Part shown: positions 8,549 to 11,736 of the stretch, one piece after another
Numbering within the stretch: the stretch's first letter is position 1
How the letters are laid out: every line of letters begins with the position of its first letter
Origin: Lachnospiraceae bacterium
Lineage (GTDB): Bacteria > Bacillota > Clostridia > Lachnospirales > Lachnospiraceae
Assembly: GCA_021772075.1 (NCBI GenBank)
Contig: JAETNQ010000034.1
Location: forward strand, 1-43,376
Reading direction: 5' to 3'
DNA length: 43,376 nucleotides
Notes under the pieces: model-generated
The model's input: only the letters and a program-made list of their open reading frames with translations
What the model was told of the DNA's origin: nothing
Database searches by the model: none
Translations under genes and position numbers: made by a program

Positions 8549-9676
8549 CTAATTCACATCCGACAAAATCGGCACCATATCATGGAACATAAAAGTCTGG
8601 TAAGGCAGCACCCGGATTCCGTCGTTCCCGGCCCGCAGGAGATAAAGAACGAAATACCCTGCCGCCGCCAGCCCGATCGCCGCGCTCCAGAACCTCCTCT
8701 GCCTCTTATCCCCGATCTTCGCCAGCACCGCCGGAATAAACAGGATCTGCGTCACATTCAGATAATAGCCGATCCGCGTAATGATCGGCAGAAACGAGCA
8801 GCATGTGTACAGCACAAGCGCCCCCAGATTGCAGAAAAAATAAAACCGGTTCCTCCTGCTCCCCTCCACCGCCTGTTTAAAATACAAGAGAGAAAATACA
8901 AGCACCCCCAGGCACCGGAGAATATTGAACCAGCTGATCCCGCCCTCCAGATATTCCGTATCCTCATAGGACGGATATAAAAAAACAACCGCCTTTAAAT
9001 AAAAATCCTGCAGAAAGAAAAACGTAGTGCAAAATAAAGCCATCAGCCCCATCTGCCATTTTTTCCATGCCAGCGAGGCGAGAAAATAAAGGGGGATCGC
9101 CACCAGCATAGACTTATGGAACAAGGAGCCGAGCAGGACAAGCAGGATAAACTTGCCCCATTCCCCCTTCAGTACATATTTTATGGAATACAACGCCAGC
9201 GCCAGCGCCAGATAATACCGCACCGTATTAAACGTGGAAAAATAAAACCCGAATGCCATAAACAGAAAGAAGCTCCACCCAAAACTGTCGCTCTGCTCAT
9301 ACATCGCTTTCAAAAACAGCCAAAGGGTAAAAAAAGCGAATACCGCGAACACCAGCAGGAAATTTTCGCCCCCCGCCAGCCGGTACACCGCTGCCACCAG
9401 CAGATTAAACCCTGCCTCGGTGGGGACATATTCATATGCGCCGCAGGCGATCAGATGCATGAACTCCACATATTTTGCATAATCGTTCCCCACATTCATA
9501 CGGCATGCGGACAAAGCAAACAAGACGATAAAAACCGTAAACAGGCACAATCCGTTACGGACCTGCCGCCGGCTTCCCCGGACTTCCCGATATCCTGTTC
9601 CCCCTCCTGCCGGCGCCGTTTCCACCAACGCCGCCAGCGCCGCTGTTCCTGCCGCTATCATCACATATAAAACCAT
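8549..9676 (-). CDS. EpsG-family membrane protein (probable Wzy-type polysaccharide polymerase)
   Basis: This 375-residue protein has about ten hydrophobic segments and the EpsG-family signature in its first third: MNVGNDYAKYVEFMH near residue 60, then PTEAGFNLLVAAVYRL near 83. Family members are thought to polymerise lipid-linked repeat units on the outer face of the membrane. The position, in the middle of glycosyltransferases and downstream of a chain-length regulator, fits. It is the only polymerase candidate in the window. A different transport or modification role is possible because EpsG proteins are poorly characterised. Confidence 0.82.
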   Translation of the reverse strand: MVLYVMIAAGTAALAALVETAPAGGGTGYREVRGSRRQVRNGLCLFTVFIVLFALSACRMNVGNDYAKYVEFMHLIACGAYEYVPTEAGFNLLVAAVYRLAGGENFLLVFAVFAFFTLWLFLKAMYEQSDSFGWSFFLFMAFGFYFSTFNTVRYYLALALALYSIKYVLKGEWGKFILLVLLGSLFHKSMLVAIPLYFLASLAWKKWQMGLMALFCTTFFFLQDFYLKAVVFLYPSYEDTEYLEGGISWFNILRCLGVLVFSLLYFKQAVEGSRRNRFYFFCNLGALVLYTCCSFLPIITRIGYYLNVTQILFIPAVLAKIGDKRQRRFWSAAIGLAAAGYFVLYLLRAGNDGIRVLPYQTFMFHDMVPILSDVN

Positions 9677-9698
9677 ACGTTCCCTTCCCGCCGCGCCC

Positions 9699-10481
9699 TC
9701 ACCGCGCCTTTCCTATGCGGATTCCTTCCGCCATAAGCCCATAAGCCCGCTTCCATTCCATTTCCCCGCACATCTCTTCCTTGTGCGCCCATAAAAACCG
9801 AAGGGCAAAGGGAACTGCCATTCTGCCATACAAAAAATGATACAGCACCCCCCTGTCCCTGAAAAACTTATCATTGTATCCGTGGAACCATGTGGACTCC
9901 CTTTCTTTCTCTTCCCCGATCACCTCCGGCGAAGCCATAATCTTAAGCCCCTGCCGCAGACAGTCCCGCAGAAAAAGGCTGTCTTCCCCGTTGCTATATC
10001 TGGCTCCCCCTCCGAATAAAAGGGAAAAGCCCACATTCGCCCGGTGCAGGGACTCCGTTCTGGCCGCGATGCTGTAAGCCGGATATCTGCCGTAATTATA
10101 CCAATGAACGCGCTTCTTTGCTTCATTCCAATAAGTCCTTCTGGAAGGAGCTACTTTTACATTGAAAAGTATCATATCCATTTCTTTGTTTTCAGCGAAA
10201 GCCTCTTCTATCTTTTTTTCGTAGCCGTCTTCATATACGATATCCTCATCGGCAAACACGGAAATCTCCCCATCCGCCCGCATCAATGCGTTGTTGCGGG
10301 AAAGGCCGACCCCCCGCTCCGGAAAGCTGTAACACCGGATCTTATGGGATCCCCGTTCATACTCCTCATAACCGAAAACGCCGCATTGGTTGACAATCAC
10401 CGCATCCGTCCTTATATTCATCCGTTCCGCCAACGTCCGCACATCCTGGCCAACTGCGGATACCAACATCTGTATCTTCAT
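9699..10481 (-). CDS. Glycosyltransferase family 2-like protein
   Basis: This 260-residue protein starts MKIQMLVSAVGQDV. It contains RGVGLSRNNALMRADGEISVFADEDIVYEDGY, where A-D-E-D-I supplies a DxD metal-binding motif in the GT2 position. The rest resembles small family-2 capsule transferases. The start at 10481 follows GGGGG by five bases. In-frame ATGs at 10493 and 10517 are possible, but the upstream residues are glycine/proline-rich and unlike the family. The gene follows a large hairpin-rich element (10531-10640), so its expression may be shaped by that structure. Sugar and linkage are unknown. Confidence 0.78.
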   Translation of the reverse strand: MKIQMLVSAVGQDVRTLAERMNIRTDAVIVNQCGVFGYEEYERGSHKIRCYSFPERGVGLSRNNALMRADGEISVFADEDIVYEDGYEKKIEEAFAENKEMDMILFNVKVAPSRRTYWNEAKKRVHWYNYGRYPAYSIAARTESLHRANVGFSLLFGGGARYSNGEDSLFLRDCLRQGLKIMASPEVIGEEKERESTWFHGYNDKFFRDRGVLYHFLYGRMAVPFALRFLWAHKEEMCGEMEWKRAYGLMAEGIRIGKAR

Positions 10482-10530
10482 ACTAACCCCCATGCCGCCT
10501 CCCGGCGGCACAAACACAAACCATCAACTG

Positions 10531-10640
10531 GAAGAACGCCGTATTTCTGGCGTTCTTCGGTGTGAGAAGACTTGCGAAGCAAGTCTAGAACTTCTTGACG
10601 AAGCACCCACTGGTGCAAGTCTTAGAAGTTCTTCTCACAC
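10531..10640. repeat. Compound palindromic element: hairpin plus perfect three-way junction
   Basis: A 10-bp perfect hairpin (10531-10540 with 10549-10558, 8-base loop) is followed one base later by a three-way junction. P1 pairs GTGTGAGA (10560-10567) with TCTCACAC (10633-10640). P2 pairs AGACTTGC with GCAAGTCT (10568-10586), with a GAA loop. P3 (10587-10632) pairs AGAACTTCT with AGAAGTTCT, then GAC/GTC, then GCACC/GGTGC around CACT. The three stems abut with no unpaired base. No U-tract follows on the transcribed minus strand, so it is not a simple terminator. It sits between the Wzz-like gene and a GT2 gene. It may be a REP/MITE-like dispersed repeat or a structured mRNA element. Confidence 0.8.
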
Positions 10641-10653
10641 TAACCTCCACACG

Positions 10654-11736
10654 TTATTTCGAACGCTTATAATACATCCTCAAAAAATCTTCCTTCGCAT
10701 CCACGATCACCGCGCCAAAAATCTTACAGTCCTGTTTCCTCAGATTTCCTATCAGCCGCTCCATCGCTTTCCCATTCTTCCCCCCGAAGCGCACCGCCAC
10801 CAATACACCGTCCGCTTCGCGCAGCCTGTCATATGCTTCCCCGTCCTCCGGCATCCCGCCGTCCAGAAGCTGTATCTGTTCGGAACGTCCATCCCCCGCC
10901 CCCTCTTTTTTCTCCGCCAGCCGTTCGATCCTCTTCGCTGCCTTTTCCGCATCTTCCTCCGCATCCGCGCTCACAAGGGCTACCTTTTTCATATCCCTGC
11001 CAAGATAGCAGTAATTCGCCAAAAATTCCTCGTCAAACCCCTCTGCCAGCTTTCCATTCCCTTCTGCCAGGATTCCTGCCGCCGGTATTCCATAACGTTT
11101 TTCCACATCCGCCGCCACGTACACGGAATCATCCATTACATAATAAAAAGCCGCCGCCGCAACCGCAGCAAACAAGGCAATGACAGCCCCTGTCGCCGCG
11201 GCCCGCAGCGTACGGTTATCCCACAGGATCTGCTTCGGTTCCGAAGTACTGTAGATTTCAATGCTTTCAAACAGCGGATCCGTCTCCCCCAGATGGATGA
11301 GGGCCGCCTGGGTTGCTTCCATAATCTGCGCCGACAGCTCCGGCCTGTCCGTTGTAATCGTCACCGTCAGCAGCCTGATATCGGATAAAATCTCCGCTTT
11401 TGTCGCCCGGATGACCGTCTCCCTGTCCATCTCCGGCGGAAGCTTTTCCATCGTATAATTTAAAATCGGATCCGTCGCCATCAGATCGTTCCACGTATAC
11501 CCATTATAGGCGAGTTCATTAAAGTCTTCCGGATCGCAGTTGAAATGCAGATATATTTTCGATACCGCCTCATATTCCCTCTGGGACGCAGACAACAAAT
11601 GAACCGACAAATAAATGCCGCCCCCAAGCGCTGCTCCGGCGCAGGCTGCTCCGATAAAAAACCATATTTTTTTCCAGACCAGCCAGAGAACCCTCTTCCC
11701 GTCGATCCCCTCCTGCATAAATCTCTCGTTTTCCAT
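10654..11736 (-). CDS. Wzz/YveK-like chain-length protein with degenerate BY-kinase tail
   Basis: This 360-residue protein has a first membrane helix at about 25-47, an extracytoplasmic Wzz-type domain to about 180, a second helix at about 187-207, and a cytoplasmic tail. The tail follows the layout of the CpsD/YwqD tyrosine kinase (KKVALVSADAEEDAEKAAKR, then DGVLVAVRFGGKNGKAMERL), but the Walker A sequence GxGKS/T is missing and no DxPP-like Walker A' is visible. Only two tyrosines remain near the C terminus (MYYKRSK). It probably sets polymer length or scaffolds export without kinase activity. It follows the wcaJ-like gene by 3 bases. Wzz assignment is firm; pseudokinase origin is inference. 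Confidence 0.8.
   Translation of the reverse strand: MENERFMQEGIDGKRVLWLVWKKIWFFIGAACAGAALGGGIYLSVHLLSASQREYEAVSKIYLHFNCDPEDFNELAYNGYTWNDLMATDPILNYTMEKLPPEMDRETVIRATKAEILSDIRLLTVTITTDRPELSAQIMEATQAALIHLGETDPLFESIEIYSTSEPKQILWDNRTLRAAATGAVIALFAAVAAAAFYYVMDDSVYVAADVEKRYGIPAAGILAEGNGKLAEGFDEEFLANYCYLGRDMKKVALVSADAEEDAEKAAKRIERLAEKKEGAGDGRSEQIQLLDGGMPEDGEAYDRLREADGVLVAVRFGGKNGKAMERLIGNLRKQDCKIFGAVIVDAKEDFLRMYYKRSK

Follow-up and report, generated by a model that had tools for sequence, protein, structure and literature searches.

The palindromic unit and its flanking genes

The window (the whole stretch of 43,376 nucleotides that was analysed, from a Lachnospiraceae genome designated G000) carries a palindromic patch between two minus-strand genes: an upstream gene for a 360-residue protein with no Pfam match at E 0.001, and a downstream gene for a family 2 glycosyltransferase (Table 1). 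A perfect 10-bp hairpin (HP1) can be read directly in the sequence, next to a three-way junction whose stems P1, P2 and P3 abut without an unpaired base. A preliminary description of this DNA had claimed exactly these features, and its coordinates proved correct to the base; RNAfold of positions 10520-10660 returned the hairpin plus the gapless junction as both the minimum-energy and the centroid structure. Folding of the same segment gave -62.2 kcal/mol as RNA (z -8.1) and -39 as DNA (z -8.9), values reached by 0/200 shuffles in either case. With z about -8, and with 36 matches in the same genome (see below), the assertion that such tiling is unlikely by chance is upheld.

The extent originally proposed, 10531-10640, is the core of the repeat; the full unit is longer and is best read on the minus strand, which is the sense strand of both flanking genes. 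Its ends are those common to full units and tandem arrays in the same genome and in relatives. The core segment 10519-10642 scores 142.1 bits with the covariance model described below, in whose alignment the window copy is itself included.

Table 1. Features of the window copy and its surroundings, listed in sense order where the strand is given as minus.
Feature	Position	Strand	Basis or remark
Upstream gene, 360 aa	10654-11736	-	stop 11 bases ahead of the unit
Upstream TAA stop, then CGTGTGGAGGTTAG	10640-10656	-	direct reading, in part interpreted
Whole repeat unit	10483-10642	-	(T)TAG at 5' end through terminal TTAG at 3' end
5' TAG	10640-10642	-	last base forms a pair at the end of P1
P1, 5' strand in sense orientation	10633-10640	-	alignment A1
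P3	10587-10632		9-bp outer helix, asymmetric internal loop, 5-bp inner helix, tetraloop
P2, optional hairpin arm	10568-10586		plus-strand apex GCGAAGC not conserved
P1, 3' strand in sense orientation	10560-10567	-	folding and alignment A1
HP1, 10-bp hairpin, 3' of junction in sense orientation	10531-10558		alignment A1 and other-genus matches
Terminal hairpin, plus strand TGCCGCC-TCCC-GGCGGCA	10493-10510		different terminal hairpin in other copies
GGGGG, Shine-Dalgarno-like	10487-10491	-	5 bases ahead of glycosyltransferase ATG 10479-10481
Terminal TTAG	10483-10486	-	start of next unit in arrays
Downstream glycosyltransferase family 2 gene	9699-10481	-	sequence reading; start partly interpreted

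The TAG at the 5' end of the window copy is not the stop codon of the upstream gene. Positions 10640-10656 resemble a nearly deleted further unit, with a TAACGTG start and a GGAGGTTAG end; that is, the stretch TAA CGTGTGGAGG TTAG between the upstream stop and the window unit looks like two unit ends from which the middle has been lost. At the other side, the glycosyltransferase probably starts at ATG 10481, behind the GGGGG; the listed start, GTG 10517, falls within the element and is less likely. No terminator-like T run was found after the window copy, where the combination of a G+C-rich hairpin and a T run is thus missing; the element is, as first described, not a classical terminator, no U-tract following it.

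Copies in the genus and the family

The preliminary description had proposed searching the same genome and its relatives for copies. With the 141 bases that had been folded (10520-10660) as query, 36 DNA matches were found in its own genome, the window copy included, and 10/41 genomes of the relatives search (again counting its own) had matches. A covariance model, R1, was built from 42 chosen copies and matched in 12 of the 16 genomes of the genus, with none in the other four. The richest were G012 (102 matches), G004 (95), G000 (39), G015 (37), G013 (29) and G003 (15), and the poorer ones G009 (7), G014 (5), G002 (4), G001 (3), G008 (1) and G011 (1); all of these counts are approximate, as palindromic copies can be hit on both strands and at most 150 candidates were scored per genome. 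A family-wide sample of one genome per genus gave matches at E 1e-4 or better in 21/299 genomes, own included, which is probably a lower bound given the stricter filters and the 11 candidates scored per genome. Judged by sequence, the copies are a repeat family of gut bacteria of the Lachnospiraceae.

Diverged copies were seen in another genus (G019) at L044 494-590 and L050 1461-1557; in the latter the inner P3 motif is preserved, and a tRNA gene lies immediately ahead of the copy. Plasmid and phage collections gave no match in either, and an origin from plasmids or phages was rejected. A collection of viral contigs gave five pattern hits, of which only L297 holds model hits: two tandem copies (9464-9746) that close a contig of 10.5 kb, catalogued as viral, which could be a prophage edge or host DNA.

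The 338 R1 matches in the genus include some palindromic cross-strand hits. For placement, 173 hits were fetched. Fifteen of them, each with E above 1e-5, were discarded because they were partial, overlapping or cross-strand; the 158 retained comprise 65 in G012, 36 in G000, 22 each in G015 and G004, 5 in G013, 3 each in G003 and G009, and 1 each in G001 and G002.

In sense order a full unit opens with (T)TAG, P1 (eight pairs, counted from the G of TAG) and P3 with its asymmetric internal loop, and closes with optional arms, CG, HP1, a linker, the terminal hairpin, GGRGG and TTAG. The optional arms lie inside the P3 junction and between P3 and P1, and the terminal hairpin is of more than one sequence type. 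In tandem arrays the next unit begins at the terminal TTAG of the previous one. TAG starts 136 of the 155 copies that have flanking sequence, and the preceding base is T in 97 and G in 41 of the 155.

The P2 region is occupied in 26/42 aligned copies and the arm is missing from 16/42. Its apex differs by copy and by strand (GAA, TTT, AAA, AAC and others), and some copies have the triloop of the window's P2 on the opposite strand. The idea of a conserved, exceptionally stable single-stranded mini-hairpin d(GCGAAGC) therefore falls.

A short pattern search found a GGRGG-type tail in 83/158 copies (a few of the 83 look fortuitous) and none in the other 75. An ATG follows 4-6 bases on in 17 of the 83, including L031, which looks fortuitous; the window tail, GGGGG TTAGT ATG, has the ATG spacing of those 17. 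Another unit start follows the tail in 31 of the 83. Four G012 loci (L066, L068, L072 and L075) hold chimeras, the 5' half belonging to one subtype and the 3' half to another, in which P3 pairs incompletely; this suggests recombination between copies.

Covariation of the fold

The preliminary description suggested selection for the fold and proposed a covariance analysis of the copies. Alignment A1 comprises 42 copies chosen from 70 located; near-duplicates were left out, as were odd copies (chimeras L066, L068, L075 and one L072 unit, together with L088, L091, L094, L095 and L097). Standard pairs occupy 98.7% of its 1580 pair cells, a somewhat flattering figure because the odd copies, which the analyses of model hits include, were omitted. 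Both sides have changed in 21/40 pairs, and so the helices covary through compensatory changes in many copies, as selection for the fold predicts. Versions of the structure slid along A1 gave pairing of only 37-51%. Four of five measures were reached by 0/500 shuffles of A1; the fifth, the number of further pair types, was 35 against a shuffled mean of 41.9 and was reached by all 500.

P1 is paired in 100% of its A1 cells, with double changes in 6/8 pairs, and HP1 in 98.8%. The third base of the initial stop triplet joins the helix, G with C or, in a few TAA copies, A with U; this pair (3-105) was GC in 40 of the 42 copies, AU in one and GU in one.

Two alignments fitted to the model gave the same picture. 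In the first, made from all 158 hits after removal of identical rows and with chimeras included, pairing was seen in 5306/5434 cells (5196 Watson-Crick, 110 G-U, 79 A-C and 49 other). Fourteen hits from other genera, also aligned by fitting to the model, were paired in 96.3% of 456 cells, with double changes in 33/39 pairs and in all 10 pairs of HP1; 0/500 shuffles reached the observed value on any of the five measures.

The ratio of G-U to A-C was 10:12 on A1 and 85:37 cells outside P3c on the model-based alignments, which favour G-U; by these counts an RNA role of the sense strand has weak support. The near-perfect Watson-Crick pairing may reflect selection on DNA, or young copies.

Placement at stop codons

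Gene contexts were taken from a small custom codon-usage gene caller, which called 36 genes in the window. The 158 hits minus 22 array followers and 10 without a called gene before them (3 were both) gave 129 lead copies. Of these, 119 lie behind a same-strand gene, 9 are flanked by divergent genes and 1 falls within an open frame.

In 48/119 copies (40%) the first triplet of the element is itself the in-frame stop of the upstream gene, and in 19/119 the gene ends in TGA at element positions 6-8. The stop lies immediately before the element or overlaps it by up to 2 bases in 15/119 copies, and 1-12 bases before it in 6/119; overall, then, 88/119 (74%) have the stop no more than 8 bases inside or 12 bases before the element. 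The upstream gene reads further into the element in 6/119, and the stop is 13-100 bases upstream in 14/119 and beyond 100 bases in 11/119.

The null came from TA sites around 181 gene ends, drawn from the window and from 20 syntenic stretches. When these sites are pooled, 7.1% belong to a stop codon and 17.1% are no more than 12 bases away from one; when each gene end is weighted equally, the values are 20.7% and 38.2%, and the excess at stop codons is therefore about twofold, not sixfold. Binomial probabilities for 48/119 and 88/119 were 2e-24 and 4e-42 against the pooled null and 9e-7 and 2e-15 against the weighted one; all are too small because copies share history, but the excess stands under both nulls.

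The element is in sense orientation in 96/96 co-directional gene pairs, including the 20 pairs in which it lies more than 12 bases from the stop. As annotated here, the family is phased to stop codons, has a fixed sense orientation and lies mostly between co-directional genes. A chance fold or an intrinsic terminator, which has nothing in its favour beyond the hairpins themselves, is refuted by z about -8, the covariation and the missing U-tract, as well as by the gene context: of the 112 lead copies with a same-strand gene on the upstream side and any called gene on the downstream side, 96 are followed by a co-directional gene. We give it practically no credence.

In other genera, the 11 best loci include 9 with an open frame of at least 121 codons upstream, and in 8 of the 9 this frame stops within the first eight bases of the element or directly before it. 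Copies in other genera are found at rpsE (L284), rpsH (L288 and L289, in two genera), rpsK (L290), yajC (L287) and a class II aldolase gene (L283). Some copies stand in ribosomal protein operons, and insertions there must be close to harmless or useful.

Occupied and empty sites

The sites of 22 copies from the window's genome were sought in the sister species G015, 4 through syntenic stretches and 18 through upstream flanks; copies in L015, L030, L032, L034, L256 and the window were left out of this test. Three sites gave no match and one (L025) was too divergent, leaving 18 comparable sites, of which 15 lacked the element and 3 were occupied. The query had omitted L016, L023, L026 and L028, whose occupation in G015 was known beforehand; with these four added back, 15/22 comparable sites are empty. 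At L024 and L027, both among the empty sites, only the upstream flank could be aligned. As a control, the model was run on the fetched G015 stretches and found two of the occupied copies and no hits at empty sites; the third occupied copy was seen separately.

Of the 15 empty sites, 8 have the insertion point precisely at the native stop codon and 2 just after it, while in 3 the point falls within the last two codons and in 2 it is intergenic. A TA is present at the insertion point in 11/15 and absent in 4/15. Comparison of the junctions for target duplication left the right side ambiguous, with TTAG at both ends and intergenic flanks that diverge fast. At the L029 site, about 90 bases of the target between the stop and the downstream gene were not found. 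Possible microhomologies (GATGAT and CCGGGAG) were noted at the ragged side of insertions.

Where orthologous sites are both occupied and paralogs exist in both genomes (eight pairs), the orthologs share an identity of 0.58-0.74, against 0.76-1.00 for the best paralogs; the best of many paralogs is a yardstick that favours paralogs, and the margin is small for G013. Two further occupied pairs, with G001 (0.70 and 0.77), have a paralog in one genome only. The low identity of orthologs reflects either repeated insertion into the same stop codon or homogenisation. At a G015 site (L271) orthologous to that of L033, an unlike element occupies the same stop codon, its P1-P3 domain reading as one long hairpin without the inner P3 motif.

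Since 15/22 sites are empty in a sister species, the element is or was mobile, and the structured mRNA spacer offered in the preliminary description is not supported as a plainly inherited feature. A fuller version of that idea, in which an old cis-acting mRNA element is inherited at operon junctions and homogenised by gene conversion, would agree with the sites that are occupied in several species, with the rpsH stop codon being occupied in two genera and with the sense orientation of all copies in co-directional pairs. Set against the empty sites, the range of 0 to 102 model matches within one genus and the tandem arrays, we consider it quite improbable.

The search for a mobilising enzyme

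The preliminary description had pointed to recognition of single-stranded DNA by a Y1-type transposase and to a TnpA-REP (RAYT) gene as the partner to look for. Insertion of the unit 3' of (T)TAG by a Y1 (HUH) transposase that recognises its hairpins as single strands, in the manner of IS200/IS605 enzymes, would account for the TAG-tagged end at the hairpin foot, for TTAG at both ends and at array junctions, and for the lack of a clear target duplication. Matches to Y1_Tnp (PF01797) were indeed obtained in 13/16 genomes of the genus, but that of the window's own genome is a broken fragment, and none was found in G012, which is 92% complete and richest in model matches (102). Of 43 Y1 loci, 19 were scanned for four short element motifs, and only L160 has any; among these 19, no Y1 gene is bounded by the element. 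With a unit length and tag also unlike those of REPs, mobilisation of this REP/RAYT type appears unlikely, and the expected partnership was not borne out.

Two Y1 loci may be described further. L160 (G009) has an IS200/IS605-type transposase gene about 1 kb from a decayed copy and not bounded by it (333-459, 1429-1893). The region 1223-1432 of L035 is a relic of a Y1 transposase gene in the window's own genome, beside a transposase-like frame.

A different route would be copy-out through an antisense RNA, with a nicked stop-codon site providing the 3' end from which reverse transcription starts; the RNA 3' end (CTCACACTA) would be fixed and the 5' end truncated and joined by microhomology. Such a route would fit the single orientation of copies, an exact sense 5' end with a ragged sense 3' end (75/158 have no tail), the possible microhomologies and the roughly 90 bp of target not found at one site. 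The ragged ends may, however, be later decay, and intergenic divergence hides junctions; moreover, RVT_1, which has matches in 10/16 genomes, was not found in G012 or G009, and we hold this route to be improbable. DDE_3, a marker of IS630 in the search for the IS630/mariner-type partner with matching ends that a TA-target MITE would have, has matches in 5/16 genomes and was not found in G012 or G004, the two richest. As Y1_Tnp, RVT_1 and DDE_3 each gave no match in G012, all three were rejected as common partners: any of them could be the common mobiliser only if it disappeared once the family had spread or lies in missing sequence.

Comparison with known repeats and RNAs

No description of the family was found in the openly licensed literature searched, and no Rfam family reached its gathering score in the window. 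At four loci of the genus searched at E 5, only RsaA overlapped a copy (L088); with E 0.63 and 26.3 bits against a gathering score of 50, this was taken as chance. Eleven other-genus loci searched at E 1 had nothing over the copies. TwoAYGGAY RNA (RF01731) occurs near copies in two genomes, at L088 1883-2049 (minus strand, 119 bits) and L291 1199-1363 (minus strand, 105 bits). The bcr repeats of the Bacillus cereus group are likewise Firmicute interspersed repeats with a conserved predicted fold.

The label REP/MITE-like is right insofar as this is a repeat family with many copies, but the definitions of REP and MITE that were tested do not describe it. In passages of PMC3733652, a REP is a palindrome of 20-40 bp tagged by GTAG or CGTC. 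The present family resembles the REP/RAYT system described there in being palindromic, in its many copies, in the tag at the hairpin foot and in the location of some copies near gene 3' ends; it differs in its unit of 100-160 bp, in having T more often than G before the TAG, and in that no RAYT association was found. When REP length, the GTAG tag and, in the genomes and Y1 loci searched, a RAYT partner were each tested, the family fitted on none of the three. The stop codon is, in addition, often part of the element here, whereas in the REPs covered in passages of PMC12306157 it lies upstream of the repeat. As for MITEs, the whole unit has no terminal inverted repeats: it runs from TAGTGTGAG on the left to GGRGGTTAG on the right, and the sequence that mirrors the left end lies in the interior.

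Closer in size are ERIC/IRU/RU-1, Correia/NEMIS and RUP, which, as portrayed in parts of PMC2229807, are of some 100-200 bp, highly base-paired when transcribed, inserted at TA, often co-transcribed and without a protein of their own. By those descriptions the present family is set apart by covarying arms that are swapped in and out, by its fixed orientation and by its docking at stop codons. BOX, RUP and SPRITE of Streptococcus pneumoniae are also small interspersed repeats with predicted secondary structure, and BOX, compared here by its published boxA-boxB-boxC architecture only, forms modular, variable arrays as our family does; in the portions of PMC3049150 that bear on them, all three are over-represented between convergent genes, in contrast to the mostly co-directional, stop-phased copies seen here.

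Interpretation

We conclude that the patch in the window is probably one copy of a small (about 100-160 bp), non-coding, non-autonomous mobile repeat family of the Lachnospiraceae. The conclusion is built on the fold, the family, the fixed orientation, the docking at stop codons and the empty sites, each of which was demonstrated at the level of sequence. In outline, a mobilising enzyme would insert the unit after a TA dinucleotide, with an exact sense 5' end and a ragged other end. Where this happens at the 3' end of a gene, the first bases of the unit would restore a stop, either TAG or, in a different frame, TGA, and the next gene would receive a ribosome-binding site (GGRGG) from any unit whose 3' end is intact; sense insertions at gene 3' ends would then survive because neither neighbour is damaged.

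Recognition by the mobiliser, in the form of RNA or of single-stranded DNA, would be one reason for the fold to persist. Alternatively or in addition, it may be kept as a co-transcribed cleavage or stability element of mRNA; ERIC and NEMIS/Correia are described in PMC3049150 and PMC2229807 as acting through RNase E or RNase III to change how stable an mRNA is. According to PMC12306157, REPs that lie no more than 15 nt from a stop codon stall ribosomes and lower translation; by analogy, the terminating ribosome would be expected to slow at the long helix, which begins with the final base of the stop codon.

A more far-reaching version of the mobile-repeat reading couples insertion to transcription or translation: the element would enter expressed genes only in sense, at the UA of a stop codon, by an RNA- or transcription-dependent route, carrying its own stops and ribosome-binding site. 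We regard this as unlikely; if true, it would make the family a new class of mobile element, one that spreads through operons, those of ribosomal proteins included, while leaving them unbroken.

Small palindromic repeats occur in many bacteria; what is unusual about this family is the combination of a stop-phased position, sense orientation between co-directional genes, swapped covarying arms and presence in ribosomal protein operons. It is worth annotating, since two genomes of this gut genus have about 100 R1 matches apiece. The copies also amount to a natural experiment on how strong mRNA structure at a stop codon affects termination, ribosome release and intergenic processing, and equally on how an insertion inside an operon can be neutral. 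The mobiliser, if found, may reveal a mechanism of site choice not seen before.
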